A DNA stretch of 37,990 bases from Bacteroidaceae bacterium (GTDB lineage Bacteria; Bacteroidota; Bacteroidia; Bacteroidales; Bacteroidaceae). Position numbers and translations under genes: made by a program. Below are positions 10,652 to 37,990 of the stretch, piece after piece (the stretch's first letter is position 1; each line of letters opens with the position of its first letter). The DNA lies in NCBI GenBank assembly GCA_024680695.1, contig JAILBW010000128.1, forward strand, positions 1 to 37,990, given 5' to 3'. The notes beneath the pieces are model-generated. The model worked only from the letters and a program-made list of their open reading frames with translations, was not told the DNA's origin and ran no database searches.

Positions 10652-10689
10652 AAAAATGTAGAATCGAAATGAATGCGTCCGACAACAAT

Positions 10690-10842
10690 CTGCTTGCTGT
10701 CACACCGGCTCCTGCTTGCTGTCGTTCCGGCTCCTGCTTGCTGTCGTATCGGTTCCTGCTTGCTGTCGTTCCGGCTCCTGCTTGCTGTCGTTCCGGCTCC
10801 TGCTTGCTGTCGTATCGGTTCCAGCTTGCTGTTGTGTTTGTC
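10690..10842. repeat. 22-bp tandem repeat array (6 full copies plus a degenerate 7th)
   Basis: Units such as CTGCTTGCTGTCGTTCCGGCTC at 10690, 10712, 10734, 10756, 10778, 10800, then CAGCTTGCTGTTGTGTTTGTC at 10822. Confidence 0.92.
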
Positions 10843-11156: not shown

Positions 11157-14100
11157 ATGCGTATGAGAAAACGTTTCAACAACTGGAGCAGGTATTCATC
11201 ACGGATGATGTGCCTGTTGGCATCTTGTGGACTTCTGTATGCATGCGAGGATCCCTTCAAGCTTGACGACGAAAAGCCCGTCTGGCTGAACACCAGCATC
11301 TACCAAAGCCTGCAGGATGGCATCGACCGAGAACTTGACGACGGTTCCAAAGTGCATCTTACGTTTAACACGTATTTGCGCCTATTGGCCGACAAGGATG
11401 TGAATCCCGAGAACGTACGTCCGCTCAGCGACGTGCTGGATCGCACAGGTTCCAAGACCGTCTTCGTAGCTGACGACAAGGCATGGGAGGAATTCTTCAA
11501 GAAGAACGCCCAGCTGCCCGAGGCAGACCCCTGGCACTACGCCACAAGCTACGAGAACCTGAGTGTGGCACAGAAGAAATTGCTTATCCACACCAGTATG
11601 CTCAACAACTCCATCGTGATGGAGAACTTGGCCAGCAGCGAGGGTAGTGGCAACACACGCCCCGTGCGTGGCGAATACATGCGCCGCTACACGGACGTGG
11701 AAGTCACCGATACCGTATGCTGGGAGACGCCAGACAGAATCCCCTACAGCTACAGTAATGTGGACAAGGACTATTGGGCACGATTCCGTCCCGAGAACGA
11801 AGGCAACGGACTCTATCTGTTGAAGGACGCACACTCCTCCATGATGCTTCACTTCACGACGGAGCACATGTCGAAGAACACCGTGACGGACGAGGACTTC
11901 GCCATCTTCATGGGCAGGCCTCGCGTTACGAGCGACGTGCACATCTATGACGCGCTCCTCCGCGAGAAAGATGTTGTTTGCGAGAACGGTTATGTAAACG
12001 TGACCGAGAAGCCGCTCGTGCCGCTGGCCAACATGGCCGAGGTGATTCACAGCAACGGACGCACCAACATCTTCAGCCACATGCTCGATCGTTACTGCGC
12101 ACCGTTCTATACGCCAAACTTCACACTGCTCTACAAGAACATCATGAAGTCGCGCGGCGAGAAATGGGCCGACAACGACTCCATCTTCGTGAAGCGCTAC
12201 TTCTCCGACAATAGTTCCGGACACAGACCACTCGCTCAGGAGCCCGGCCCCAACGGAACATACAACCCCTACATGCCCTATAAGGACGACACCAGCAAGG
12301 ACATTATTCCTTCGCTGAAGTTCGACCCAGGATGGAACGAGTTCCGCGACGAGACGGACGTTGAGAAGGACATGGCTGCCATGTTCGTGCCCAGCGATGA
12401 TGCCCTCTGGACCTACTTCACCCAGGGTGGTGGTCTGCAGCTCATCGAGACCTATGCCAACATCAACAACGTGGCCAACCTCATCGCACTGAGACCAGGC
12501 GAGACCATCAGCCCCGAGGCATACGATGCACTCTACCGCGAAATCGACCAGATTCCTCTCGGTACACTTCAGGCCCTCATCAACATCATCATGCTCCGCT
12601 CCTTCGTGGGAAGCGTACCCAGCAAGATGACCAAGCTGCGCGACGACGCACAGGAACAGCTCTTCTACGCCGAGGATATCGACAAGATCGACACCTGCCT
12701 CCTGGCCTGCAACGGTGCTGTTTACATCATGAGCGACATCTACGGACCGGCCGACTACACCTCCGTAACATCGCCCGCATACATTAGTACTACTAATAAT
12801 ATTATAAAGTGGGCCATCTACAATGGTTCGTCTGGCACCGACTACATGGGACTTAACTACTACGCCTACCTGAAGGCCATGCAGAGTGAGTTCACATTCT
12901 TCCTGCCCAGCGACGCAGCCCTGCAGTACTACTATGACCCGACATCCTTCAAGAGCACCTCGAAGCGACTCATCCAGTTCACCTACCGCAACCAGGCATT
13001 CCCCATCAACTCGAAGTGTATCAACTACGACCCCGCTACCGGTGTCACCGGACGTGCCATTACGGGACAGGGTGCATCTATCCAGCAGCAGGAGATCACC
13101 AACCGTCTGAAGGATATCCTCGAGAGCCACACCATCGTGCACGACGGTACGAACCCCATCCACGGAGAGGATGAATATTTCTTGTCAAAGAACGGTAACG
13201 CCATCAAGGTGGCCCGCGACGAGAACGGAACCGTTACACAGGTTTGGGGAGGCTTCCAGCTCGAGAACCAGCGTCAGGGAATCTCCAGCGAGAATCCCGG
13301 CGTGGACACCTGCCTCGTGACCAAGGCATTCGAGAGCCTCAAGAACGGACAGACCTACATTCTCAACGCGCCGCTTATCCCCACATACCGAAGCGTTTAC
13401 AGCATCTTGACCGACGATGAGTGCTGGAAGGTGAAAGACAGCGTTCAGATGTACGTAGACGATCCCTACCTGCGCTTCTACGACCTGTGTGAGGTGGACG
13501 AGGAACTCATCTACGGATGCGGCCTTGTGGACATCAACCTGAGCCAAAGCGAACGTCGCAGCGCAATGAAGAAGTTCACCATTTTCGTGAACGACAACGG
13601 TCTGGACTACAACATCCAATTCTTTAACAATTATCGCTACACCGCATTCATCCCGACGAATGCCGCAATCGACAATGCAATCGCACACGGTCTGCCCACC
13701 TGGGACGAGATAAAGGCCGACTACGAGGCACATTGTAAGACAGAACGCGTATGGGATGCCGAACTCGGCGACTCGGTGGATGCACCGACCACCGAACTGG
13801 CAACTGCCACAGACAGCTTGCGCATCCAGGCCAAGATTCTCTACCTGACCAACTTCATCCGCTACCATTTCCTCGACAACTCAGTATTTGCTGACAACAG
13901 CACACTTCCAGAGGAAGAGTGGGTAACCTCCAGCTACGACCGCGACCTCGGTCTGTTCTGCAAGGTACACGTTGACCGCGTAAAGGAAGGCGGAAAGACC
14001 ATTCTGCGAGTATGCGACGATACGCACGCCTTCAATTCCTCTACGGGCAAATATGACGGTCCTCTCAACCATGTGATGATACCGACCGTTGGCGAACCCA

Positions 14101-14324
14101 ACGTCCTCGCACGCGACATCGTTTGCTCCAGTTCACCCATTGGCGTACCCATGTCCACCAGTAGCAAGCGAATCACTCTGGATGCCTCCAGCGCCTGTGT
14201 GATTCACAGCATCGACGCATGTCTGAACCATACAGAGCTGGGAGCCGACGGCAACCACAGCATCATCTGGGAGACACCCGCCAGTGCAAAGAGATATCTG
14301 GAGAGATACGCTATCCCCGATTAA
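11157..14324 (+). CDS. Large multi-domain fasciclin (FAS1) lipoprotein (1055 aa)
   Basis: Signal peptide with lipobox LLYAC; repeated FAS1 core signatures TVFVADDKAWEEF, AAMFVPSDDALWTYF, TFFLPSDAALQYY, TAFIPTNAAIDNA. Confidence 0.8.
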   Translation: MRMRKRFNNWSRYSSRMMCLLASCGLLYACEDPFKLDDEKPVWLNTSIYQSLQDGIDRELDDGSKVHLTFNTYLRLLADKDVNPENVRPLSDVLDRTGSKTVFVADDKAWEEFFKKNAQLPEADPWHYATSYENLSVAQKKLLIHTSMLNNSIVMENLASSEGSGNTRPVRGEYMRRYTDVEVTDTVCWETPDRIPYSYSNVDKDYWARFRPENEGNGLYLLKDAHSSMMLHFTTEHMSKNTVTDEDFAIFMGRPRVTSDVHIYDALLREKDVVCENGYVNVTEKPLVPLANMAEVIHSNGRTNIFSHMLDRYCAPFYTPNFTLLYKNIMKSRGEKWADNDSIFVKRYFSDNSSGHRPLAQEPGPNGTYNPYMPYKDDTSKDIIPSLKFDPGWNEFRDETDVEKDMAAMFVPSDDALWTYFTQGGGLQLIETYANINNVANLIALRPGETISPEAYDALYREIDQIPLGTLQALINIIMLRSFVGSVPSKMTKLRDDAQEQLFYAEDIDKIDTCLLACNGAVYIMSDIYGPADYTSVTSPAYISTTNNIIKWAIYNGSSGTDYMGLNYYAYLKAMQSEFTFFLPSDAALQYYYDPTSFKSTSKRLIQFTYRNQAFPINSKCINYDPATGVTGRAITGQGASIQQQEITNRLKDILESHTIVHDGTNPIHGEDEYFLSKNGNAIKVARDENGTVTQVWGGFQLENQRQGISSENPGVDTCLVTKAFESLKNGQTYILNAPLIPTYRSVYSILTDDECWKVKDSVQMYVDDPYLRFYDLCEVDEELIYGCGLVDINLSQSERRSAMKKFTIFVNDNGLDYNIQFFNNYRYTAFIPTNAAIDNAIAHGLPTWDEIKADYEAHCKTERVWDAELGDSVDAPTTELATATDSLRIQAKILYLTNFIRYHFLDNSVFADNSTLPEEEWVTSSYDRDLGLFCKVHVDRVKEGGKTILRVCDDTHAFNSSTGKYDGPLNHVMIPTVGEPNVLARDIVCSSSPIGVPMSTSSKRITLDASSACVIHSIDACLNHTELGADGNHSIIWETPASAKRYLERYAIPD

Positions 14325-14340
14325 ATAACATTATTGACTT

Positions 14341-17300
14341 ATGAAGAAAATATCTAAGCTTATACTGCTTGGGGTAGTGACCCTGATGGCACTCCCTGCA
14401 AGCGCACAGCAACGGCGTATCTCTGGAACTGTGTCGGACGATATCGATGTCCTGCCGCAGGCCACCGTTGTCGAGAAAGATAAAAATAACCGTATTGTAA
14501 GCCAGACCATCACCGATATGAATGGTAACTTCACCATGAATATCAAGGACCCGAACAATACGCTTATCATCAGCTACGTGGGCTTCAAGCCCTTCCAGTC
14601 AAAGATTGGTGCCAAGAGTGTATATAAAGTAGTACTCCAGGACAACAGCCGCACCATTCCCGAACTTCAGGTAACCGCAAAGGAGAAAGCACCCACCACT
14701 GGACTTGAGATTCCAGCCCGTGAGTACGCCGGTGCAGTACAGAAGTTCAGCATGGACGACATGGAAGGTCTCGCATTCGAGTCCGTAGACCAAGCCCTTC
14801 AAGGACAGATTGCCGGTCTCGATATCGTGCCCAACTCTGGTAACCTTGGTTCAGGAACGACGATGCGTCTGCGTGGTACCACCACCATCAATGGTGATGC
14901 CCAGCCTCTGATTGTCGTGAACGACCACATCTTCGAACTGCCCGACGACTTGAAGGACACTTACATCAACTTCGAAACCATGGACAACGAGGAGCAGTTC
15001 TCGACACTGCTTAACGTGAACCCCGAGGACATCGAGAGCATCACGGTGCTCAAGGATGCCGCTTCCGCAGCCAAGTGGGGTTCGAGAGGTTCGAACGGTG
15101 TAATCGAAATCAAGCTGCGCCGCGGACGTAAGGGCCCGACGAGCGTGTTCTTTAACTACAAGTTCAACGGCACATGGCAGCCCGACGGATACAAGATGCT
15201 GAACGGTGACGGATACACTATGATGCTCAAGGAGGCATACTACAACCCCCTGCAGGTGCCCACAAGCCTGCTCGAGCTCGACTACAACCAGGAGTATCCC
15301 TACGTATACAACCACTTCAGCCACAACACAGACTGGGTGGACGCCGTAAGACAGTTCGGTAAGGAGAACAAGTACTATGTCACACTCTCCGGTGGTGGTG
15401 AGAAAGCCCTCTTCCGCATCAGTGCCGGTTACGACAAGAGCACAGGTTCCATCATCGGACAGAAGCTCGACCGATTCACGACCTCCTCGGCCCTCGACTA
15501 CTGGGTGAGCGACCGAATCAAGTTCCAGAGCAACATCAACATGACGTTCACCACAAACAACAAGCACTACGTGGAGGGCGGAGGTAGTAGCGACATCCTC
15601 GGTCGCGCCTACAAGGCTATGCCGAACATGAGCATCTGGGAGTATGACGCACAGGGCATCAAGACTGGCAACTACTTCAACATGTTGCCACTCGCAGCCA
15701 ACTATGCAAGTGGTAGTATCTCCCGTCGTTCCAACAATGGTATGTACACATCGTACGACCTGGCCGACATGTTCTGGAATGGCAACCCCGTGGCACGCGC
15801 ACTCAACGCACGCAACAAGGAGAAGCAGTACAACCTGACTCCGCAGTTCAGCATCGAGTACAAGTTCCTCGGCACCGATAACGACCACCATCAGTTCAAC
15901 TACAAGGGCGACGTCCAGCTGAACATCTACAACACCAGCCGCGACATGTACTGCCCCAGCGAGCTGAAGCCCATGCCTTGGGTTTGGGGTGGCGACAATA
16001 CGACAGACGATCACAGCAACGAACGTAACTACGTGTCGAACTTCGAGTACAAGTCAATGGAGTTCACCACACGTCACGAACTGCTCTACTACTCGGCATT
16101 CAAGAACAAAGACCACAGCCTCAGCGCACTGGCCCGCTTCGAAATGTACACAGGTACCAGTAGCTCGCAGAACCTTGGTCTGTGGAACGTACCCGACCAG
16201 ATTACTGACCCGACCGTAGTAGCTCTGCTCCGCAGCGCATCGGCAAGCGAGAACGAATGGCGCAGCCACAGCTTCTTCGAGCAAGTACACTATTCCTACA
16301 AGGGTAAGTATTCACTCGATGCCAACATCCGTACCGACGGTAACACCGCATTCGGTAAGGGACACAAGTACGGACACTTCCCCTCGATCGGAGGTCGTTG
16401 GAATATCATCGACGAGCACTTCATGGACTGGAGCCGCGGCGTGCTAAGCATGCTCTCCTTCCGTCCCACATGGGGTATCACTGGTAACACCGGTACTGGC
16501 AGCTACAACCAGTATAACAAGTATGCTTCCCACGGCCACTACAACGGTCACTCTGTGATTATCCCCGAGAGCCTCGCACTGACTGAGCTCCGCTGGGAGA
16601 AGACACAACAGTGGAACCTCGGTTTCGACCTCGGCTTTGTGGACATCATCAACTTCAACTTTGAGGTTTACAACAAGAAGACCACCGACCTGCTGATGTA
16701 CGGTCTGACAATCCCAAGTGCCAACGGTTTCAGCAGCCTGGCAAAGGCCAATGCCGGTACGATGCGCAACAAGGGATGGGAGCTCAACGGCTCCACCAAC
16801 CGCATCCTGAAGATTGGCAAGTTCTCCATGAAAGTACGTGGCAACATTGCACAGAACTTCAACGAAGTGGAAGAGATGAACCCGCTGCTGCTCGAGTCGC
16901 TGAACGGCTCCGAAGCTTACCAGCCCAGCAACCTTGACTACAACAGGCGCGTACAGATTGGCAACGCACTGGGTTCCATTTACGGTCTGCGCTACAAGGG
17001 CGTATATCGCTACGACTACGACCATAACGGCTACACAGCAGCATCCATCAACTCCTACGGCTATGCCGAGGTGGACAACAGTGGTTACGGACCCGACAGA
17101 AACGGCAAACCCGATCACGACTACCCCATCAACACCGCAGCAGCAGCACTCCGTCGTGGCGACAAGAATGCTACATGCCCCATCGCATACGACGCCGATG
17201 GCAACATGCTGACCGATGCCAAGGGAATCCCCCTGCCAATGTACTATTGCTACAACGAGAGCTACCGTTATCAGTTCCAGGGTGGTGACGCTATCTACGA

Positions 17301-17871
17301 AGATATCAACCACGACGGACAGATCGACCGATACGATATGGTTTACTTGGGCAACTCGAACCCCAAGTGCAGTGGTGGTTTTGGTTTCACCTTCTACTAC
17401 GGACGCTTCTCCATCAACACGGGCTTCAACTTCCGTATGGGCAACAAGATCGTGAACATGGCACGTATGACCTACGAAAGCATGCGTAACAACGACAACC
17501 AAAGCTTTGCCACCACATGGCGCTGGCGCAAGAACGGCGACGGCAACGACGGTCCAGTTATCCCGCGTGCTTTGTCATCGAAGCTTGGCTTCCGCAGCTA
17601 CAACTCACTGCCCAGCGACCGCTACGTGGAGAATGGTAACTATCTGCGCTTCCAGTACCTTCAGGTGAACTACGACTTCAATCCTGCAAAGCTGAAAAAG
17701 TTCGGTGTCAAGACGCTCAAGCTCTTCGCATCGGTGAACAACATTTGGGTATGGACCAAGTACACGGGCGTGGATCCCGACGTTTCTCCCGGTGGTTTCA
17801 GCGTATGTATGGACAACAGCCGTACGCCGCGCTCCAAGTCATTCACATGCAGTCTTAACCTCGGCTTCTAA
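14341..17871 (+). CDS. SusC/RagA-family TonB-linked outer membrane protein
   Basis: MKKISKLILLGVVTLMALPASAQQRRISGTVSD carboxypeptidase-regulatory-like start; plug SVDQALQGQIAGLDIVPNSGNLGSGTTMRLRGTTTING; NPEDIESITVLKDAASAAKWGSRGSNGVIEI; C-terminal beta-barrel. Confidence 0.93.
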   Translation: MKKISKLILLGVVTLMALPASAQQRRISGTVSDDIDVLPQATVVEKDKNNRIVSQTITDMNGNFTMNIKDPNNTLIISYVGFKPFQSKIGAKSVYKVVLQDNSRTIPELQVTAKEKAPTTGLEIPAREYAGAVQKFSMDDMEGLAFESVDQALQGQIAGLDIVPNSGNLGSGTTMRLRGTTTINGDAQPLIVVNDHIFELPDDLKDTYINFETMDNEEQFSTLLNVNPEDIESITVLKDAASAAKWGSRGSNGVIEIKLRRGRKGPTSVFFNYKFNGTWQPDGYKMLNGDGYTMMLKEAYYNPLQVPTSLLELDYNQEYPYVYNHFSHNTDWVDAVRQFGKENKYYVTLSGGGEKALFRISAGYDKSTGSIIGQKLDRFTTSSALDYWVSDRIKFQSNINMTFTTNNKHYVEGGGSSDILGRAYKAMPNMSIWEYDAQGIKTGNYFNMLPLAANYASGSISRRSNNGMYTSYDLADMFWNGNPVARALNARNKEKQYNLTPQFSIEYKFLGTDNDHHQFNYKGDVQLNIYNTSRDMYCPSELKPMPWVWGGDNTTDDHSNERNYVSNFEYKSMEFTTRHELLYYSAFKNKDHSLSALARFEMYTGTSSSQNLGLWNVPDQITDPTVVALLRSASASENEWRSHSFFEQVHYSYKGKYSLDANIRTDGNTAFGKGHKYGHFPSIGGRWNIIDEHFMDWSRGVLSMLSFRPTWGITGNTGTGSYNQYNKYASHGHYNGHSVIIPESLALTELRWEKTQQWNLGFDLGFVDIINFNFEVYNKKTTDLLMYGLTIPSANGFSSLAKANAGTMRNKGWELNGSTNRILKIGKFSMKVRGNIAQNFNEVEEMNPLLLESLNGSEAYQPSNLDYNRRVQIGNALGSIYGLRYKGVYRYDYDHNGYTAASINSYGYAEVDNSGYGPDRNGKPDHDYPINTAAAALRRGDKNATCPIAYDADGNMLTDAKGIPLPMYYCYNESYRYQFQGGDAIYEDINHDGQIDRYDMVYLGNSNPKCSGGFGFTFYYGRFSINTGFNFRMGNKIVNMARMTYESMRNNDNQSFATTWRWRKNGDGNDGPVIPRALSSKLGFRSYNSLPSDRYVENGNYLRFQYLQVNYDFNPAKLKKFGVKTLKLFASVNNIWVWTKYTGVDPDVSPGGFSVCMDNSRTPRSKSFTCSLNLGF

Positions 17872-17885
17872 AAAACGATACGAAT

Positions 17886-19817
17886 ATGAAAAGAACGAAT
17901 ATATTCAAATACACCTGCTTGCTGGGTCTCTTCGCGGTGAGTACGACCTCATGCGAAGACTGGCTGACCGTCTATCCCCAAGACCGTGTGGTGGAAGAGC
18001 AGTTCTGGGAGGACAAGAACGACCTCGAGGGTGTGCGCTATGCGGCTTATCAGCACATGGCATCCACGGTCAACAAAATGGCATTGTGGGGCGACATGCG
18101 TTCCGATGTCTTCATCATCAACCCGAACACCAACAGTGCACAGGGCAGCAGAGACATGTATGAAGAAATCAAGCAAGGTATGCCCGACTCGAGTATGAGC
18201 ATCTTCCAATGGGGAGAGTTCTACACGACAATCAACTACTGTAACAAGGTACTCCAGCACGGCGAGGAAGTACTCGAAAAGGACAAACAGTTCACCACCG
18301 CCGAATGGCTTCAGATTCGGGCCGAGATGGTGGCCCTGCGCGCCCTGAACTACTTCTATCTGATACGCGCGTTCAAGGATGTACCCTACACCACAAAAGT
18401 CATCAACAACGACACGCAGATTGAAACCTTCGGACTCACCACGCAGTTGGACATCCTCGACTCTATCATCCTCGACTGCGAGAAGGTACAAGGCCAAGCT
18501 CGTAACCGCTTCGTCAGCAAACAGGACAGCAAGGGCATGATCACGAACTGTGCCATCTATGCCATGCTTTCCGACATGTACCTGTGGCGCGCCTCACTGC
18601 ATCAGGGACGCTTCGGCAAGAACTCCGCTGACACAGTTGCCGTGGATACCGGCCTCGTGGCCCACTCCGTCGTTGGCGACTATCAGAAGAGTATTGAATA
18701 TGCCGACAAGTCACTTGCCGCACTGGCCTATCAGAACCAGGAGGAAAGCAGTGGCACCTACAACTTCTCGCAGCAGAGGACCATCAACTTCGGCCTCGAG
18801 AACTGCGACATGGTGTACAATGACTTCGAAGAGGTTAGCTCCTCCAACGAGATCAACCCCAGACTTGAGGCTCAGAACAGCATCTTCTATGGAAGTGGCA
18901 TGTCAATAAACGGAATCACAAACGGCAACAGCATCGAAAGCATTTTCGAGTTGCAGTTTAGTCAGGGTGACAGCCGCAGAAACGATATCGTAAACAGCCT
19001 CTACGGATTTAACGACGGAACTCATCTTGCCGTCAGCCAGGAGGCATTCCTTGCCGCATACGCCAACAACGCCACCGAGCAGCAGTACGATTCACGTTTT
19101 TGGATTTCATGCACCGATCAGATCCGTACAGAATCAGGCAGCGGCAATTCGTCATCAGGAACAGTAGGCGGATTCTATTGCGTCAAGTACATGACACCCG
19201 AGGTAACGCTGACCGAAGGAGCAAACCGCGAGATCTACGTCACAGTAGAAGCTTACAGCTACCAGAACTGGATCGTCTATCGTATGACAGACGTGATGCT
19301 GATGAAGGCCGAAGCTCTGGCCTGCCTTGGCGGCACGGAAAACAACAACGAATGTAAGCGACTGGTGAATGCCATACACCGCCGTTCCTATTGCGACTTC
19401 AAGAACTACCGCGAAGTGGACACCGATATCAACAGCGGCACATACGGCAACGCACCTTCCACTGGTTCCGACCTCGTGAAGTTGGTAATGAACGAGCGCC
19501 AGATAGAGCTTATCGCCGAGGGCAAACGTTGGTTCGACCTCGTACGCTATGCCGAGCGCAACAGTGACAGCACCAAGGAATCGGCAGACGAGCGAGAGAG
19601 CACCGACGAGAAATTCGTAGGCGACGGACAGACAGGCGTTCAGAAGATGGTGAAAGACTATATGGAGGTCAGCGTACAGAAACTGGCCACCGTGCTGACC
19701 CACCGCTTCAAGAATCGCTACGGACTCTACTGCCCCATCTATTACATGGAGGTCAAGGCCAGCGACGGCAAGATCTTACAGAATCCAGTGTGGAACAAGT
19801 CGAAGTATGACAACTAA
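17886..19817 (+). CDS. RagB/SusD-family nutrient-binding outer membrane lipoprotein
   Basis: Lipobox STTSCEDWLTVYPQDRVVEEQFW; RAEMVALRALNYFYLIRAFKDVPY; ERQIELIAEGKRWFDLVRY. Confidence 0.93.
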   Translation: MKRTNIFKYTCLLGLFAVSTTSCEDWLTVYPQDRVVEEQFWEDKNDLEGVRYAAYQHMASTVNKMALWGDMRSDVFIINPNTNSAQGSRDMYEEIKQGMPDSSMSIFQWGEFYTTINYCNKVLQHGEEVLEKDKQFTTAEWLQIRAEMVALRALNYFYLIRAFKDVPYTTKVINNDTQIETFGLTTQLDILDSIILDCEKVQGQARNRFVSKQDSKGMITNCAIYAMLSDMYLWRASLHQGRFGKNSADTVAVDTGLVAHSVVGDYQKSIEYADKSLAALAYQNQEESSGTYNFSQQRTINFGLENCDMVYNDFEEVSSSNEINPRLEAQNSIFYGSGMSINGITNGNSIESIFELQFSQGDSRRNDIVNSLYGFNDGTHLAVSQEAFLAAYANNATEQQYDSRFWISCTDQIRTESGSGNSSSGTVGGFYCVKYMTPEVTLTEGANREIYVTVEAYSYQNWIVYRMTDVMLMKAEALACLGGTENNNECKRLVNAIHRRSYCDFKNYREVDTDINSGTYGNAPSTGSDLVKLVMNERQIELIAEGKRWFDLVRYAERNSDSTKESADERESTDEKFVGDGQTGVQKMVKDYMEVSVQKLATVLTHRFKNRYGLYCPIYYMEVKASDGKILQNPVWNKSKYDN

Positions 19818-19949
19818 ACCATTTCGACGACACACAAAAGTAGAGAACAGTAAAAGAATAAAATTGTCAATGCCTATCCTCTCGGATAGATATATCGGAC
19901 AACACGAAGAACAAAATCTCATCCGAAAGGAACAAACAACAGCAAAGAT

Positions 19950-21896
19950 ATGGCAAAAAGAAAATTCAACAAGTATCTCGGAACAATGACCATCGGTGCG
20001 CTCATCATGGCCACGCCCAGTTGTTCCGACTATGACGATCACTACTTTCCGACACTGGACGAAGAGGCCAACGCCACTGAGACCCTGTGGGAGAAAATCA
20101 GTACTGATCCCAATCTGACACGTTTTGCAGACATCCTGCAACACGCACAATACTACAAGGACGATACGCACCCCGTGGCAAACTACACGTATGCTGACGT
20201 CCTGAGTAGCGGACAGGTGTGCACCGTATGGGCTCCCGAAAACGACTACTTCACCGAGGAAGAGTACAAGAAATGGCTGGAAATGGCCAAGACCAACGGC
20301 TACAATCTGGAACAGCAGCTCGTACGCAACCACATTGCACTCTGGCGTCACAATCTCTCCGGTACTGAAATCGACACGATTAAGATGTTCAACAGCAAGA
20401 ACCTCATCTTCGACCGCGTTGAGGAAACGCTTGAAGGCGTGAAGATTAATCGGAAGAACATTCCAGCCCTGAACGGAGTACTCCATACACTGAAAGGCAA
20501 GACCCCGTTTGAGTACAACTTCTATGAGTATATCAAGTACAGCGGCGAACTGCCCCTGCTCCACGAATTCTTCATCGGCAAGGACACCACGTACTTCAAT
20601 CCTAATGCGAGCATCGAAGGACTGCCCGACAAGAACGGTAATCCGACCTACGTGGACAGCATCTACACCACAAGTAACCTGCTTATCAACAGCTACTCGT
20701 ATCTTCCCCGCACCAATCAGGAGAAGTACATGTCGGTACTGAAAGGTCTGGGAGGTGGCAGTAACATCCAACAGGAGGACTCCATGTACATCATGATTCT
20801 CCCCAGCGATGCCGCATGGACCGAGGCATACGAGCGCCTGAAGCCCCTCTACAACTACGCACCGACTTACGAGAACCGTAACAAAGGCAATGTTGGTACG
20901 ACTGAAACCATGAAGGACTACAATGTGGACTCGCTCATGGATCAGAACATCAAGATGGACCTCACCTATCCCCTGCTGTTCAACATCCACAAGCAGCCCA
21001 AGATTGGTGGATACGAGAACGGCACTCCATGGACATTGGAGACATTCATCGAGACGAAGGGCGACACGGCCGAGTACTTCTACAATACGTATGGAGATAC
21101 CATCCGCTCAAGCGAGGATTGGAACAAGACCGAACTGTTCAACGGCCAGCGTATAAAGATGAGCAACGGATACGCCTACAAGGTTGACAAGTGGGCATTC
21201 CCACTCGACTACTACATGGCTCCTGTGATTGTGGAAGTCACCGGTGGTGCCTACTACTACCAGTCGAGCGACAAGTACTACACTGGAACCGGCCAGACAA
21301 AGTCGTTCAGCAACTCGGGATTTGCTGCAGTGGCCGACAAGTATGGCAAGGTTAGCCGCGACAACTTCTATCTGATGAAGCCGAAGGGCACCACACATCC
21401 CAAGGGCGAGATCAAGTTGCATGGCAACATCCGTCTGACCCCCACGAACAAGAGCGACGTCACCGGACACTACGGAGAAGTGATGAGCGGCAAGTATGAT
21501 ATATATATCGTAATGGTTCCCTACTGGTACACCACTATTTCCGAAAAGGGTGAACTCGACTCGGTATTCTACGATTCGCTCTACGTCGACTCTGTTGCCG
21601 GCAAGTGCAAGAACAAGTTCAAAGTACAATTGCGCTACAACAACGGCGCAGCATCGGATGCCACCACCACAGCAGTCGAGATTGACTACGATGCCAAGAA
21701 AGTGGACACCATCAAGGTGCTCGAAAACTTTAAATTCCCCTATTCCTACAAGGACCTTCGCTTCTGCTATCCTACAATGATAGTACAGGGAAGCGCAACT
21801 TCGGCCAACCTGCGTAATGGCGGCTATATCCGCGAATTGTGCATTGACCAGGTAATCCTGCGGGGCAAGGAAGAGGACAGTGAACCCCAGTTGTAG
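19950..21896 (+). CDS. FAS1-domain lipoprotein with an uncharacterised C-terminal domain (648 aa)
   Basis: Lipobox ATPSCSDYDDHYFP; FAS1-like CTVWAPENDYFTEEEYKKW and YIMILPSDAAWTEAYERL; C-terminal ~230 aa beta-rich region. Confidence 0.7.
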   Translation: MAKRKFNKYLGTMTIGALIMATPSCSDYDDHYFPTLDEEANATETLWEKISTDPNLTRFADILQHAQYYKDDTHPVANYTYADVLSSGQVCTVWAPENDYFTEEEYKKWLEMAKTNGYNLEQQLVRNHIALWRHNLSGTEIDTIKMFNSKNLIFDRVEETLEGVKINRKNIPALNGVLHTLKGKTPFEYNFYEYIKYSGELPLLHEFFIGKDTTYFNPNASIEGLPDKNGNPTYVDSIYTTSNLLINSYSYLPRTNQEKYMSVLKGLGGGSNIQQEDSMYIMILPSDAAWTEAYERLKPLYNYAPTYENRNKGNVGTTETMKDYNVDSLMDQNIKMDLTYPLLFNIHKQPKIGGYENGTPWTLETFIETKGDTAEYFYNTYGDTIRSSEDWNKTELFNGQRIKMSNGYAYKVDKWAFPLDYYMAPVIVEVTGGAYYYQSSDKYYTGTGQTKSFSNSGFAAVADKYGKVSRDNFYLMKPKGTTHPKGEIKLHGNIRLTPTNKSDVTGHYGEVMSGKYDIYIVMVPYWYTTISEKGELDSVFYDSLYVDSVAGKCKNKFKVQLRYNNGAASDATTTAVEIDYDAKKVDTIKVLENFKFPYSYKDLRFCYPTMIVQGSATSANLRNGGYIRELCIDQVILRGKEEDSEPQL

Positions 21897-21914
21897 ATTT
21901 AACACCATACGACA

Positions 21915-24900
21915 ATGAAAGACAGAATTAGCAATACAATCCTGCACAAGGCATTAAGCACGAGCTTGTGTTTCATTCTGCTGTCCGGCCTAAGCATTGG
22001 CACGGCGTCGGCTCAGGATAACAACGAGAATGAGGAAAACGCCACGCGCATATATGCCAAGAAGAGAACGCAGACAAAGGAATATGAGATGAAGACCGTC
22101 GAGGGCGTCATCACCGACGATGCCACGGGCGAGGCTATGGGCGGCGTGCGCGTTCAAGCGTATGGCCTCGAAAACTACTCCGTGCTGACCGACGAAGACG
22201 GAAGTTACAAGATTGAAATTCCCACCTTCTCGGATGCTCTCTATGTTACCGTCGAAGGTTATCAGCCCCAGCAAATCGCAGTGAAGGACGGCAAAGCCGA
22301 CGGCAAACTGATCAGCACCCACTTCAACAGTTTCTACACGGAGGCTACCACCATCACGTCGCAGCGCACACTGAAACTTGACGAAACAAGTGGCATTACC
22401 TTCGAGAACGATCTGGAGAACAAGATGGCTGCCGACGTACACGCCATCAAGCGTAATGGCGTGCCTGGCATGGGTGTCTATATGAATATCCGCGGCGTAA
22501 ACTCCATCAACGCTAACTCCCAGCCGCTCATCGTGCTGGACGGAAACATTATCGACCCCCAGTACGACCGCACCACGCTCCACGAAGGCTTCTACTCGAA
22601 CCTCCTTTCCGGTATCGATCCCGAGAACATCGAGAGCGTACAGGTTCTGAAGAACGGAACAGCACTCTACGGCGCCAAGGGTGCCAATGGTGTCATCATC
22701 ATTACCACCAAGCGCGGAAAGAGCATGGCCACAAAGATTGGCGTGCGCATCTACGGCGGTGTGGAACTCACCCCGAAGAAACTTGATGTGCTCAACGGTG
22801 ACGAGTATTCCACCTATCTGTTCGATGTAGCCAGCACCGTGAAGGACTTCAAGGTGAGCAATATCAACAGCTACCGTTTCCTTGACAAGAGCCCCTCGAA
22901 CTACTACCTGAAGGTGTTCACCAACAACACAGACTGGCAGAAAGACATGTACCGCACAGCCATGACCCAGAACTACAAGATCAACGTGGAGGGTGGTGAC
23001 GAAATTGGTATGTATGCACTCTCGCTGGGATATGCCAAGGGCGAGAGCATAGGCAAGGGCACCGACATGGACCGACTGAACCTGCGCTTCAACACCGACA
23101 TCAAGGTGTTCAGCAAGGTTTCCACAGGCCTTGACATCGCTTTCAACCAGAATACGTACAACGTACTGGACAACGGCTGGAGCGAGGACTACTCGATGCA
23201 GAACATAGGTTCGACGAATGTACTGGGCCTCATACAGGCTCCGTTCATCAGTCCCTATGCTTACTACTACGACGAGACATCCACCGATCCCCTGTCCTCG
23301 AACCGTCTTGCCCTTTCGAAGGAATACAGCGGCAAGTATGCAGCGTCGGGTGGCACATGGATTCAGAACCCCTTCCGCTTCTCCAATTCGCTGAACACAA
23401 ACAGCAACCGCGTGAACGAGGCTCTGCGCAATCCATACTGGATACTCAAGAACGGACGTGGCAATAACAAGAATCACGCTCAGTTCACACAAATGGACCT
23501 GAACGTAAGCCCAAAGTACGAAATCAACAAGCACCTCTCCATTAGCGACCGCTTCAACTACAGTCTGGTGCGCAGCAATGAGAAGTACTTCCTGCCCATC
23601 GCCGGTACAACAGCCTATTTCCTTGAGGACCTGGGCGATATCACCAGCGTAGTAAGAACTCAGTTCGGCAAGGAAACCACCATGCAGAACGACTTGCGCA
23701 TCGACTGGAACAACATCTATGGTGCACACGCCATTGATGTGTTCGCCGGCTGGCGCTACAACAACTATTCGTACAGCTACAACTTCATGGGTGGTTACAA
23801 CAACGAAAACGATAAACTGCCCAATGTGAGCAAGAACATGCAGTATGTCAACTATGGCGGTACAAACGACAACTGGATTGACATTACATACTATCTCAAT
23901 GCAGCCTACAACTACAAGCAGCGCTACTTTGCAGAGTTCACCTTGAGCAGCCAAGCAGCCAGCAGATTCGGTGACAACACCGACGATGGATTCCAACTTG
24001 CAGGAGTAAGCTGGGGTGTATTCCCCTCGCTGCAGTTGGGTTGGGTGCTCACAAACGAGAAATGGTTCCAGACAGGCAAGGGCATCCAGTATCTGAAACT
24101 CACCGCCGGTGTGGACCAGAGCGGCAACGACGACCTCGACTACTACGCTGCCCGTACCTACTGGGAAAGCCAACGTGTAACTAAGAACACCGTTGGTCTC
24201 GTACTGAAGAACATTGAGAACAGCACCATCCAGTGGGAGACCACCACGAAGTACAACGTGGCACTCCAGGGAAGCTTCCTGAACAACCGTCTGCAGGCTG
24301 GTCTCGACCTTTTCTGGCACAAGACCGACAATCTGCTCACCATCAAGCAGCTTTCCTACATCTCAGGTATGGACAAATACTGGACTAATGACGGCCAGAT
24401 GAAGAACAAGGGCTTTGAAGCCAGCGTGAACGCTGCAATCATCAACAAGAAGAATTGGAAGTGGGAAGCAGGCCTCAGTGTAGGACACTATAACAACAAG
24501 GTGACCAAGTTGCCCGAAAACAATACGTTCGAAATCAAAGACGTGGACGGCGGCAACAGGCAGACCATCAATGGCTACACATCCGACGTCTTTGGTGATG
24601 CCAACGTACTCACGGCTGTAGGTCATGCAATGGGTAGCTTCTATGGTTGGCAGACCAATGGCGTATTTGCCAGCGACGGCGAAGCCAGTCAGGCCACGAC
24701 GGTGACTCGCAATGGCAACAACTACCTGAAGTATCCGACCGGACTGACCGAAGCAGGCAAGGAGTATTACAACTTCCAGGCCGGCGACGTGAAATTCATC
24801 GACCGCAACAACGACGGCGTCATCGACGATGCCGACAAGACGGTCATTGGTAATCCCAATCCCGACATCTACGGAAACATCTTCACGAGCCTCACTTGGA

Positions 24901-25358
24901 AGCACCTGCGCCTCGACGTAAACTTCAAGTACAGCCTCGGCAACGACATCTACAACTACCAGCGCTCCATCATCGAAGGCCTCAACACGACCTACAACCA
25001 GAGCAAGGCAACGCTGCGCCGCTGGACACATGAAAATCACGTGACCGACATGCCCAAGGTGTGCTACACCTACAGCGACGACTGGCGCAACAACGAACGT
25101 ATGTCCGACCGTTGGATAGAGGACGGAAGCTACTTGAAGTTGAAGAACGTACGCCTCACCTACAAACTCCCCTACAGCAACACATGGCTGATGGGTCTCA
25201 AGTTGTGGGGCGAAGCAAACAACCTCTTCACGGTGACACGCTATCTGGGCACAGATCCTGAGATGAGCCACAGCAACAACGTGCTCTATCAGGGCATCGA
25301 CACTGGTCTCATCCCCAGTGGCCGCAGCTTCAACGTGGGTGTTTCCATCAACCTGTAA
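21915..25358 (+). CDS. SusC/RagA-family TonB-linked outer membrane protein (second copy)
   Basis: VEGVITDDATGEAMGGVRVQAYGLENYSVLTDEDGSYKI; MNIRGVNSINANSQPLIVLDGNIID; DPENIESVQVLKNGTALYGAKGANGVIIITTKRG. Confidence 0.93.
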   Translation: MKDRISNTILHKALSTSLCFILLSGLSIGTASAQDNNENEENATRIYAKKRTQTKEYEMKTVEGVITDDATGEAMGGVRVQAYGLENYSVLTDEDGSYKIEIPTFSDALYVTVEGYQPQQIAVKDGKADGKLISTHFNSFYTEATTITSQRTLKLDETSGITFENDLENKMAADVHAIKRNGVPGMGVYMNIRGVNSINANSQPLIVLDGNIIDPQYDRTTLHEGFYSNLLSGIDPENIESVQVLKNGTALYGAKGANGVIIITTKRGKSMATKIGVRIYGGVELTPKKLDVLNGDEYSTYLFDVASTVKDFKVSNINSYRFLDKSPSNYYLKVFTNNTDWQKDMYRTAMTQNYKINVEGGDEIGMYALSLGYAKGESIGKGTDMDRLNLRFNTDIKVFSKVSTGLDIAFNQNTYNVLDNGWSEDYSMQNIGSTNVLGLIQAPFISPYAYYYDETSTDPLSSNRLALSKEYSGKYAASGGTWIQNPFRFSNSLNTNSNRVNEALRNPYWILKNGRGNNKNHAQFTQMDLNVSPKYEINKHLSISDRFNYSLVRSNEKYFLPIAGTTAYFLEDLGDITSVVRTQFGKETTMQNDLRIDWNNIYGAHAIDVFAGWRYNNYSYSYNFMGGYNNENDKLPNVSKNMQYVNYGGTNDNWIDITYYLNAAYNYKQRYFAEFTLSSQAASRFGDNTDDGFQLAGVSWGVFPSLQLGWVLTNEKWFQTGKGIQYLKLTAGVDQSGNDDLDYYAARTYWESQRVTKNTVGLVLKNIENSTIQWETTTKYNVALQGSFLNNRLQAGLDLFWHKTDNLLTIKQLSYISGMDKYWTNDGQMKNKGFEASVNAAIINKKNWKWEAGLSVGHYNNKVTKLPENNTFEIKDVDGGNRQTINGYTSDVFGDANVLTAVGHAMGSFYGWQTNGVFASDGEASQATTVTRNGNNYLKYPTGLTEAGKEYYNFQAGDVKFIDRNNDGVIDDADKTVIGNPNPDIYGNIFTSLTWKHLRLDVNFKYSLGNDIYNYQRSIIEGLNTTYNQSKATLRRWTHENHVTDMPKVCYTYSDDWRNNERMSDRWIEDGSYLKLKNVRLTYKLPYSNTWLMGLKLWGEANNLFTVTRYLGTDPEMSHSNNVLYQGIDTGLIPSGRSFNVGVSINL

Positions 25359-25406
25359 CCGCGATATCACAGACCACGCATAACAATGTCAATAAGATTA
25401 AAGATT

Positions 25407-27728
25407 ATGAAAAGAAGAACAATTATAAGTCTGCTGTTCCTCGGGATGGGATTGGGAATGATGACAACCTCCTGCGAGGACATGCTTACTCCCGACAGCG
25501 AACGTCATCAGTATGAAGTGGCCAAGGACACGCTTTACACCTACTGGGGTATTGTGAAGTCATTGCAGAACATCGCTGAACGTTATATAATTCTCAACGA
25601 ATGCCGTGGCGATATGGTAGGAGCAACCAGCAATGTCAGCGACACCATCACTGCCATTATGAGCTTCGGACAGGAACAATCCGACAAGTACGTGGATGGT
25701 TCCAGCATCTACCTGAACGCACGCGATTACTACCAGATCATCAACAGCTGTAATGCCTACATCGCCAGTTGCGACACGTTCCTCATGACCGGTATGGACC
25801 AGAAATACATGATCAAGGAATATGCCCAGGTGGAGGCGATCCGCGCATGGACATACATCCAACTGGTGAACGCCTATGGTACGGTGCCCTTCTTCACAAA
25901 ACCGATGCTCACCACCGACGATATCAACAAGTTCATGAAGAACCCCGCCCACCCCACCGTCGATGCAAGTTCGCTGGCCGACTCGCTGGCCGGACGTCTC
26001 ATCCCGATGGAGTATGTGGAATACTTCTACGGCTATCCTCAGTATGAGAGCTACAACGGCGTTTGCCACAGCACCAAGTGTATGTTCCCCGTAAGCCTTG
26101 TGCTGGGCGACCTCTATCTGCTCAAGGGTGACGACGAGTCATGCAAGAAAGCCGCACAGAGTTATTACGACTTCCTGAGCTATAAGTATGGTGGCCCCAT
26201 CTACGTGAACAGCTACTACAGTACAGGCAACTGGACTGAAGGAGAGGATGAGCCCTACTATCTCTATGTGGGCAATCCATTTGGCGAGACTGGTGCTCTC
26301 AGTCGCTACAACGAGTCCATCACCTGCATTCCCAGCAACAGAGGTAAACTCGACGGCAAGGTTAACGTCAGCGTGAGCCGCCTCTTCGGTTTCAATGCAA
26401 CCATGCGTGCCACCGGTAGCGGTGACCAGACATCTTCCAGCATTGGACTTAGTCTGAGCGACGACCGCGAGCTGATGCCCAGCAAGCAGTACGAGGCCCT
26501 CTGCGATTCCGTACCCTACGAAATCTACATCGGTCCAGCAACCGATCAGCTCGAAGTGCAGACGTACCCCGGCATCGGCGACACACGCCAGTCTTGGATT
26601 AACAACTCGGCGACGGGTCAGTCGTTCACTTTCCGCGTAGGCGAAGACACCAAGTATGGCAAGTTCGTGACCAAGCAGAACCCAGGAAGAGGCTTCACAG
26701 CCACCTATCCCATGGTGTACCGCAAGGCTACCATCTGGTTGCGCTATGCCGAGGCTCTCAACCGCGCCGGCTTCCCCAGCTATGCCTTTGCCATCCTGCA
26801 GAAGGGATTGTGCAACAACGATGACTGGTATCCCGAACAGCCTGCCACCTTCACGCCCTCGACCGACACGCTGTGGATGAGCAACAACGACTTCGTGAAG
26901 GCATATACCCATACGGGCGAGGACTATGCAATTAAGGACACCATGTGGGTATATGTGGATACCGTAATCTACAAGTATAACGAAGACTCAACCCTTATTG
27001 AGAAGGTGGCCGTCATCGCACCTGCCGCCTCCACCGTATCCCAGCAGGATGTCATCGATCAGATGCAGGCAAAGAAGGATGCCGGAACCATCGACACCTT
27101 CTACACCGCACGCCTGAACTATGTGGCAAAGTCGTACAACAACTATCCCGACGAGACCACACAGGCCATCTGCTATTTCCTCGACCGTCGCGAGGTGGTG
27201 AAAGCAGCTTCAACGCCCTACCTCAATTTCAAGACCGAGTATCTGAAAGGTAACACCGCCAGCTACAGTGTGTCTTGGAAGATGGACATGCTCAACAGAC
27301 AAACACACTCCGACCGTACAGGTTACATCGGCTCAACAAATCCCGATGACAATGTGACCGTCGGCATCCACTCGCGTGGTGCAGGTCGTCTGAGATATGA
27401 TGAGCGCAACAGCAAGTTCAACTACGTCGATATGGTAACCAAGAAAGTGAAGGAGAACCACAATGTCACCTTGACAAAGGAAGACATCTATAGTGGCACC
27501 TACGACGACTTTGTGAAGGAAGCTGTGGAAGACATCATCATCGACGAGATGGGAATGGAGTTGGCATTCGAAGGCACTCGCTTCTTCGACCTGAGCCGTG
27601 TGGCATTGCGCCGCAACGACCCGACCTATCTGGCAAAGCGCGTCGCAATGCGTAATGGTACTATGGACATGACGTTCTACAACTACCTGAGCCAGCCCAA
27701 GAACTGGTACCTGCCACTGCCGGAGTAA
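25407..27728 (+). CDS. RagB/SusD-family outer membrane lipoprotein (second copy, large)
   Basis: Lipobox MMTTSCEDMLTPDSE; YAQVEAIRAWTYIQLVNAYGTVPFFTKP; DEMGMELAFEGTRFFDLSRVAL. The start at 25407 (MKRRTII) is preferred over the upstream ATG. Confidence 0.88.
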   Translation: MKRRTIISLLFLGMGLGMMTTSCEDMLTPDSERHQYEVAKDTLYTYWGIVKSLQNIAERYIILNECRGDMVGATSNVSDTITAIMSFGQEQSDKYVDGSSIYLNARDYYQIINSCNAYIASCDTFLMTGMDQKYMIKEYAQVEAIRAWTYIQLVNAYGTVPFFTKPMLTTDDINKFMKNPAHPTVDASSLADSLAGRLIPMEYVEYFYGYPQYESYNGVCHSTKCMFPVSLVLGDLYLLKGDDESCKKAAQSYYDFLSYKYGGPIYVNSYYSTGNWTEGEDEPYYLYVGNPFGETGALSRYNESITCIPSNRGKLDGKVNVSVSRLFGFNATMRATGSGDQTSSSIGLSLSDDRELMPSKQYEALCDSVPYEIYIGPATDQLEVQTYPGIGDTRQSWINNSATGQSFTFRVGEDTKYGKFVTKQNPGRGFTATYPMVYRKATIWLRYAEALNRAGFPSYAFAILQKGLCNNDDWYPEQPATFTPSTDTLWMSNNDFVKAYTHTGEDYAIKDTMWVYVDTVIYKYNEDSTLIEKVAVIAPAASTVSQQDVIDQMQAKKDAGTIDTFYTARLNYVAKSYNNYPDETTQAICYFLDRREVVKAASTPYLNFKTEYLKGNTASYSVSWKMDMLNRQTHSDRTGYIGSTNPDDNVTVGIHSRGAGRLRYDERNSKFNYVDMVTKKVKENHNVTLTKEDIYSGTYDDFVKEAVEDIIIDEMGMELAFEGTRFFDLSRVALRRNDPTYLAKRVAMRNGTMDMTFYNYLSQPKNWYLPLPE

Positions 27729-27796: not shown

Positions 27797-27830
27797 GCAG
27801 GAGGTAAACACTGATGTGTTTACCTCCTGC
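27797..27830 (+). terminator. Perfect 15-bp stem hairpin downstream of the SusCD locus
   Basis: GCAGGAGGTAAACAC TGAT GTGTTTACCTCCTGC; ~70 nt after the SusD stop. Confidence 0.65.
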
Positions 27831-35248: not shown

Positions 35249-35776
35249 ATGACGCGCGAAGATTTCATCACCCATGTTGAGCGCGAGCAGGAGGCACTCC
35301 GAGGCTTCTTGCTTGCCCTGTGTTGCGGCAACAAGGACGATGCCGACGACTTGGCGCAGGATACGCTGGTGAAGGCCTACCTATCCTCGGCCGGCTATCA
35401 GGACAAAGGCCGTTTCCGTGCCTGGCTCTTCACGATAGCCCACAACACATTCCTCAACCACAGGGCCAGCTGCCGCACGATGGCGAACATCGAAGAGGCG
35501 CAAACGCTCGCCAGCAGCACCTCGGCCGACGCCTCCTTCGCCCACCAGAGCCTCTACCTCGCCCTGCGCACCCTCCCACCAAAGGAGCGCTCTGCCATCA
35601 CCCTCTTCTACCTGAGCGGCTACAGCATCAAGGAAATCGCAGCGATTACAGCGACTTCGGAGGATGCCATCAAGAAACAGCTCTCCCGAGGACGCGAGAA
35701 ACTGAAGAAGGAACTGCAAATCGACGATCACTCTCCCAGCCTTTCCCAAGGGGGAGGAGCCAGGGGGACTGGATAA
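35249..35776 (+). CDS. ECF-type RNA polymerase sigma factor
   Basis: Region 2 NKDDADDLAQDTLVKAYLSSAGYQDKGRFRAWLFTIAHNTFLNHRAS; region 4 ALRTLPPKERSAITLFYLSGYSIKEIAAITATSEDAIKKQLSRGREKLKKEL. Confidence 0.92.
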   Translation: MTREDFITHVEREQEALRGFLLALCCGNKDDADDLAQDTLVKAYLSSAGYQDKGRFRAWLFTIAHNTFLNHRASCRTMANIEEAQTLASSTSADASFAHQSLYLALRTLPPKERSAITLFYLSGYSIKEIAAITATSEDAIKKQLSRGREKLKKELQIDDHSPSLSQGGGARGTG

Positions 35777-37320: not shown

Positions 37321-37990
37321 CTACTTCACTGGCTTGACCATGTAACGGAATTTGTAGTTTTGGTAAGGCATGCGGTACTCCTTGCGCGGCCAAGCGCCCC
37401 AACTGTTGATGCCTCCCACGCCGAACTGACGTGCCTGCACCTGCAGGACGGTGAAGGGACGCGGAGTGAGGTCACCGCTGTGGTGCTGCGTGGCAGCCTT
37501 CTCGGGTCCGTCGTCGAGGTCGGAAGGCAGATAGTTGAGTGCGCTGCACTCCATCGGCGCATCCAGTGCCAAGAACGAGAGGCCCCGGCCCTGCTTGTCG
37601 GTCAGCGTCCAATAGCGCACATCGGTCTTGTTTCCGCTCTCCTGCGGACGCACGTAGGGCCAATACTGATCGGCCACCTTCTGGTGATAGACGGCAAGCG
37701 ACTGGCTGAAGTTGCGATCGATATAGTTCTCGATGGGGCCGCGGCCATAATAGGTTATCTCCGAAAGGCTTTCTGGCAACACCCACTGCTGGCCGAAGCG
37801 GAACATGTCGGGCATATCCTTGGCCTCCTTGTCGGCCTCGAGCTCCTGCTGCACAACCAAGAAGCCTCTGGCGTTGAGCGAATAAGAAATCTTCAGTACG
37901 GCCTTCACCTGCGGCATCTCGTACTCCACGTTGATGGACTGTACTTCTTTATTTACCGTCTGACAGTCAACCTTCTTCAGCTTCATCTCG
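37321..37990 (-). CDS. Glycoside hydrolase family 2 beta-galactosidase-like, C-terminal part (truncated by the window edge)
   Basis: LPESLSEITYYGRGPIENYIDRNFSQSLAVYHQKVADQYWPYVRPQESGNKTDVRYWTLTD matches the beta-galactosidase small-chain domain; continues beyond 37990. Confidence 0.85.
   Translation of the reverse strand, partial: EMKLKKVDCQTVNKEVQSINVEYEMPQVKAVLKISYSLNARGFLVVQQELEADKEAKDMPDMFRFGQQWVLPESLSEITYYGRGPIENYIDRNFSQSLAVYHQKVADQYWPYVRPQESGNKTDVRYWTLTDKQGRGLSFLALDAPMECSALNYLPSDLDDGPEKAATQHHSGDLTPRPFTVLQVQARQFGVGGINSWGAWPRKEYRMPYQNYKFRYMVKPVK

Follow-up and report, generated by a model that had tools for sequence, protein, structure and literature searches.

The locus described here comprises six genes on the forward strand at positions 11157 to 27728 of a Bacteroidaceae bacterium contig (GenBank accession number JAILBW010000128.1; the 37,990 nt analysed are called the window below). 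Its products probably make up the outer-membrane core of a system for glycan uptake, in which two different SusCD transporters would be served by lipoproteins with fasciclin (FAS1) domains acting as surface binders. The genes follow the order FAS1a, SusCa, SusDa, FAS1b, SusCb and SusDb, with intergenic gaps of 16, 14, 132, 18 and 27 nt. The initial annotation had presented the locus as a tandem doubled FAS1-SusC-SusD triplet with no enzymes. The order FAS1-SusC-SusD, repeated twice over in one direction, was confirmed by the open reading frames (ORFs) and by Pfam and NCBIfam profiles. Neither doubling nor freedom from enzymes is a trait of the family, because the two halves are divergent and relatives carry enzymes. 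The locus is a real, conserved and unusual variant of the SusCD/polysaccharide utilization locus (PUL) kind. Family names in the following list are given at scores above the curated Pfam/NCBIfam cut-offs.

11157–14324, + strand: FAS1a, lipoprotein of 1055 aa with lipobox Cys30 (Pfam Fasciclin PF02469, 33.9 bits)
14341–17871, + strand: SusCa, SusC/RagA TonB-dependent transporter of 1176 aa (OMP_RagA_SusC TIGR04056, 623 bits)
17886–19817, + strand: SusDa, SusD/RagB lipoprotein of 643 aa (SusD_RagB PF07980, 95.6 bits; PF14322, 53.8 bits)
19818–19949, no strand: empty FAS1c slot of 132 nt (architecture counts in relatives and sequence)
19950–21896, + strand: FAS1b, lipoprotein of 648 aa with lipobox Cys25 (Pfam Fasciclin PF02469, 22.9 bits)
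21915–25358, + strand: SusCb, second divergent SusC of 1147 aa (TIGR04056, 555 bits)
25386–27728, + strand: SusDb, divergent SusD of 780 aa (SusD_RagB PF07980, 44.5 bits)
27797–27830, + strand: likely intrinsic terminator with a 15-pair stem, about 70 nt past SusDb (consensus match only)

SusCa and SusCb both include carboxypeptidase-regulatory (PF13715/PF13620) and plug (PF07715) domains together with a TIGR04056 SusC-type barrel, and are thus members of the SusC/RagA group. The nearest solved relative of both is the SusC homolog 8aa4 (E 6e-78 for SusCa), and both also match the SusC homolog 5t3r and RagA structures. A hidden Markov model search of the two FAS1 genes, which the initial annotation had named as a check, found the Fasciclin domain in each, and profile matches and predicted structures agree on the FAS1 fold. 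The score of FAS1b is the weakest among the six genes and lies barely over the threshold (22.9 bits versus a cut-off of 22). The lipobox cysteines are retained in alignments of the relatives (C30 of FAS1a in alignment A1 and C25 of FAS1b in A2). By position and by this conserved Cys, the FAS1 genes encode lipoproteins accompanying susCD, as expected of surface glycan-binding proteins (SGBPs), with lipidation being predicted. The proposal that FAS1 lipoproteins accompany the SusC/SusD pairs is therefore upheld. Judged from its signal peptide, SusDb more likely starts at its second Met, at 25407; the gap to SusCb would then be 48 nt.

No significant BLAST match was obtained between FAS1a and FAS1b, SusCa and SusCb share 22% identity, and similarity between SusDa and SusDb is limited to one weak stretch. 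A maximum-likelihood tree was built from 60 SusC rows. A branch with support of 100 sets all 32 SusCa rows apart from the rest, and the 27 rows labelled SusCb are all likewise grouped; each of the two clades spans several Bacteroidales families. L272, a row labelled SusCb, falls on a long branch together with the outgroup, and the label is open to doubt. Given these distant relationships and separate SusC clades, a recent tandem duplication was rejected; on sequence comparison, the two halves are ancient and divergent and are not copies of each other.

Relatives of FAS1a were detected in 130 and of FAS1b in 126 of the 201 genomes of the family, in both cases in 16 of 30 genera, where these tallies take in weak matches with E up to 0.001. 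One FAS1a search match in the source genome (G000:C192) spans stop codons. The module is also present in five further Bacteroidales families, and the named matches are mostly rumen and gut metagenome-assembled genomes labelled Bacteroidaceae or Prevotellaceae. The conservation of the triplets expected in the initial annotation was borne out, as the arrangement FAS1a-SusCa-SusDa-(FAS1c)n-FAS1b-SusCb-SusDb is kept, with few permutations, in almost all relatives whose sequence is long enough for a judgement. FAS1c is an extra FAS1 lipoprotein gene that relatives usually carry in one to three copies between SusDa and FAS1b, and that is missing from the 132-nt gap of the window. Architecture counts, read in six frames, gave 20 complete loci of seven genes with a single FAS1c and 13 complete loci of six genes, the window among them; two loci have three copies of FAS1c, a few are permuted, and most others are cut off by the end of the sequence stretch analysed. 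Some contigs are represented twice (e.g. L127 and L087), and the loci are hence not all independent. The six genes are 78–89% identical to those of the nearest relative, L086, and the ratio of non-synonymous to synonymous substitution rates (dN/dS) against it is 0.10–0.16 in all of them (0.11 for FAS1a), with 0.08 for miaA. Thus, by its substitution pattern, the locus is under purifying selection and very likely functional.

The FAS1c protein is roughly 700 aa long and has a conserved lipobox Cys; many members also share the C-terminal motif VYDNPxxPEDIW. Alignment A3 contains one wrong-strand row (L023), of which alignment A6 is free. There are 13 FAS1c matches elsewhere in the source genome, and such orphans were also recovered by a Fasciclin scan of the genome; in some genomes of the same genus at least 18 matches were seen. 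Five of the orphans in the source genome adjoin large secreted proteins, and a sorting tail of the type IX secretion system (T9SS) type, judged by eye, is found at the end of three orphan neighbours (L020, L021 and L023). In several of the orphan loci L015–L025, the FAS1c gene adjoins one for a large secreted protein that has LamG, M26_N/GLUG-like or CotH neighbours. A SusC-less FAS1b-FAS1a-FAS1c cluster, in which the FAS1c copy is often shortened, occurs in six loci (L105, L106, L161, L186, L191 and L199); in L105 a FISUMP-domain protein is encoded beside it.

In profile searches, the nearest solved relatives of the FAS1a and FAS1b families were periostin and TGFBIp. The AlphaFold2 model of FAS1a (mean predicted local distance difference test, pLDDT, 84.8; predicted template modelling score, pTM, 0.75) was aligned by Foldseek with TGFBIp/periostin over ~1000 columns with E 4e-15 and a low global TM-score. 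Four FAS1-like motifs were recognised by eye at residues ~100–110, 407–420, 578–590 and 826–838. FAS1a would thus be a chain of FAS1 domains, their count of four being taken from the sequence motifs at low TM-scores; according to a review, prokaryotic FAS1 proteins typically have a single domain (PMC6032426). For the FAS1b model (pLDDT 87.7, pTM 0.83), TGFBIp/periostin again came first (E 6.5e-8), followed by carbohydrate-binding module (CBM) folds, namely CBM22 (E 6e-4) and CBM61 (E 1e-3), with CBM35 among folds at E 6e-4 to 2e-3. The model suggests two FAS1-like segments and a C-terminal CBM-like beta-sandwich, the CBM-like matches being placed in the C-terminal part from secondary structure, since Foldseek query ranges were not printed. 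As a sign of surface glycan binding, this predicted fold is suggestive only.

A PUL includes at least one susC-susD pair, of which this locus has two, and usually enzymes and a regulator. The flanks were confirmed to be miaA on the left and an IS66 element with five tRNAs on the right. Between miaA and IS66 no carbohydrate-active enzyme was found, and no hybrid two-component system (HTCS), extracytoplasmic function (ECF)/anti-sigma or SusR regulator adjoins the locus, so that this part of the initial annotation stands for the present copy. Farther to the right, the window includes an ECF sigma factor gene at 35249–35776, 7.5 kb away past IS66 and the tRNAs. At 37321–37986 on the minus strand follows a gene for a GH2-type beta-galactosidase, of which only the end is present because the contig stops there; it, too, lies over 7 kb from the locus. 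GH43 genes are present elsewhere in the source genome, in which no more than four SusC genes score above the family cut-off; this locus holds two of the four.

For the relatives, the same claim does not hold. Of the 38 loci with FAS1c, 26 have GH43 and/or Glyco_hydro_cc genes no more than four ORFs upstream, against none of the 24 without it; these 62 loci are related by descent, and the figures describe an association rather than 62 independent events. The Glyco_hydro_cc proteins of relatives are T9SS-secreted, and one is also encoded directly upstream in another family (L263). Near other relatives are genes for GH43, GH127, GH95, GH35, GH2, GH31, arabinofuranosidase, GH16, SASA esterases and rhamnogalacturonan lyase, and HTCS regulators are encoded near L261 and L270. 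A non-glycan ligand had been proposed from the absence of enzymes and regulator, and that argument is weakened because homologous loci carry glycoside hydrolase (GH), lyase and HTCS genes. Hence a glycan ligand is favoured. Going by the neighbours in relatives, it is probably a plant glycan bearing arabinose or galactose, and a pectic or arabinogalactan-like polymer is the most plausible kind. In L136, L137, L139–L142, L158, L188, L190, L202 and others, all of them loci lacking FAS1c, an M6 metalloprotease encoded directly upstream of FAS1a has a T9SS-type tail.

In the mechanism proposed from the identity, order, conservation and selection of these genes, the FAS1 lipoproteins would lie at the cell surface and have a glycan-binding or tethering role, as SusE/F or SGBPs do elsewhere. 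FAS1a would contribute its FAS1 chain, and FAS1b and FAS1c their FAS1 domains and a C-terminal domain, which is CBM-like in FAS1b. A polymer or oligomer would be held by these proteins near the transporters with which they may form a complex, and each SusD lid would pass glycan to its own SusC for import driven by TonB energy. In many relatives, glycan-cutting enzymes (T9SS-exported Glyco_hydro_cc, GH43 and others) encoded beside the locus would supply the system. The subclade of the window has neither enzymes nor FAS1c at the locus, so that its members may import oligosaccharides already cut by enzymes encoded elsewhere or by neighbouring cells.

Several observations weigh against glycan uptake. 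This copy has neither enzyme nor regulator, and the two particular enzymes (GH43 and Glyco_hydro_cc) that lie upstream in relatives were not found elsewhere in the source genome (83% complete; searched without a positive control). The enzyme families differ between loci and imply no single substrate, an M6 metalloprotease gene is within four ORFs upstream in 12 of the 24 FAS1c-less loci, and the CBM-like match of FAS1b has E of about 1e-3. Some of these points would suit import of peptides, protein-derived or host/cell-surface molecules by the SusCD pairs, with the FAS1 proteins as capture or adhesion modules: the bare locus, the metalloprotease, which lies directly upstream in those 12 relatives, and the match of SusCb to the RagA structures. 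However, the GH43/Glyco_hydro_cc genes upstream of most FAS1c-bearing loci, together with the HTCS regulators and the variety of GH families seen near relatives, make a non-glycan ligand less likely than a glycan, and we regard it as rather unlikely. Also to be considered is a possible arrangement of two independent SusCD systems sharing a site, with different ligands and a FAS1 partner each, which would be compatible with glycan uptake. In its favour, neither triplet lacks a member, the a and b forms of SusC and SusD have diverged strongly and 132 nt separate the modules; against it, the two pairs occur side by side in an unchanged order in every locus of sufficient length and across families. 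Tentatively, the two pairs may combine into a single, obligately heteromeric transporter (SusCa-SusDa with SusCb-SusDb) that carries the FAS1 lipoproteins, a heterodimeric utilisome in which FAS1c would be an exchangeable subunit that has spread through the genome as orphan genes.

The orphan FAS1c genes beside large secreted proteins, three of these with a T9SS-type tail, and the SusC-less clusters in six loci might instead point to a surface layer built of FAS1 and T9SS-exported proteins, SusCD serving in assembly or anchoring and not in uptake. SusC and SusD are importer families, however, and hydrolase and HTCS genes lie near the relatives, so that this role seems improbable. That the locus is a decaying relic, from which FAS1c and the enzymes were lost in this lineage, would explain the empty FAS1c slot, the absent upstream enzymes and perhaps the IS66 element downstream; yet the six genes are intact and closely similar to those of L086, with dN/dS near that of miaA. 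Decay is largely rejected by this pattern of selection and is highly improbable.

The proposed glycan uptake by two SusCD transporters with FAS1 partners has likenesses among known systems. In Bacteroides thetaiotaomicron, the utilisomes for levan and dextran likewise combine a SusC TonB-dependent barrel, a SusD lid and surface lipoproteins encoded together (PMC7618045). They are dimers of one SusCD pair, each component being present twice, with an SGBP of Ig-like and globular domains and a GH (PMC7618045), whereas the locus here encodes two divergent pairs, FAS1 domains and no GH. In the SusCDE complex of Flavobacterium johnsoniae, SusCD is also joined by an accessory surface lipoprotein; this is SusE, and the text of the paper mentions neither fasciclin nor FAS1 (PMC12611786). 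RagAB of Porphyromonas gingivalis (PDB 6sli and 6slj) is a SusC/SusD-type pair with sequence matches to both SusCs of the window, but it is a single pair with a peptide ligand, and no FAS1 partner of it was matched in PDB. The four-FAS1 chains of periostin and TGFBIp (PDB 5yjg and 5nv6), with which almost the entire FAS1a model can be aligned, belong to animal extracellular matrix proteins that are not lipoproteins and have no transporter, in contrast to the lipoproteins beside SusCD here. PDB profile searches with FAS1a, FAS1b and FAS1c yielded no Bacteroidota SusCD-associated FAS1 protein, and no described system with FAS1 lipoproteins in SusCD or polysaccharide utilization was found in the literature searched, which took in few subscription journals. 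The expectation that no characterised system has this composition is thus maintained for these sources.

The exact form of the Bacteroidetes-type promoter pattern had no match at the locus, and scans for E. coli-type promoters found fewer promoter-like sites than in shuffled sequence. Between miaA and FAS1a, at 10680–10830, there are short repeated GC-rich words (CTGCTTGCTGTCG...CCGGCTCCTG), and similar words seem present in other intergenic regions of the same genome (L020, L021, L023 and L025).

Reading a SusCD locus from a single genome can mislead, as the enzymes missing here adjoin the locus in relatives. Several families of gut Bacteroidales carry a module of two co-conserved SusCD transporters and multi-FAS1 lipoproteins. 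If its products form one complex, the view that SusCD machines rest on a single pair would have to change, and bacterial FAS1 chains would gain a testable role.

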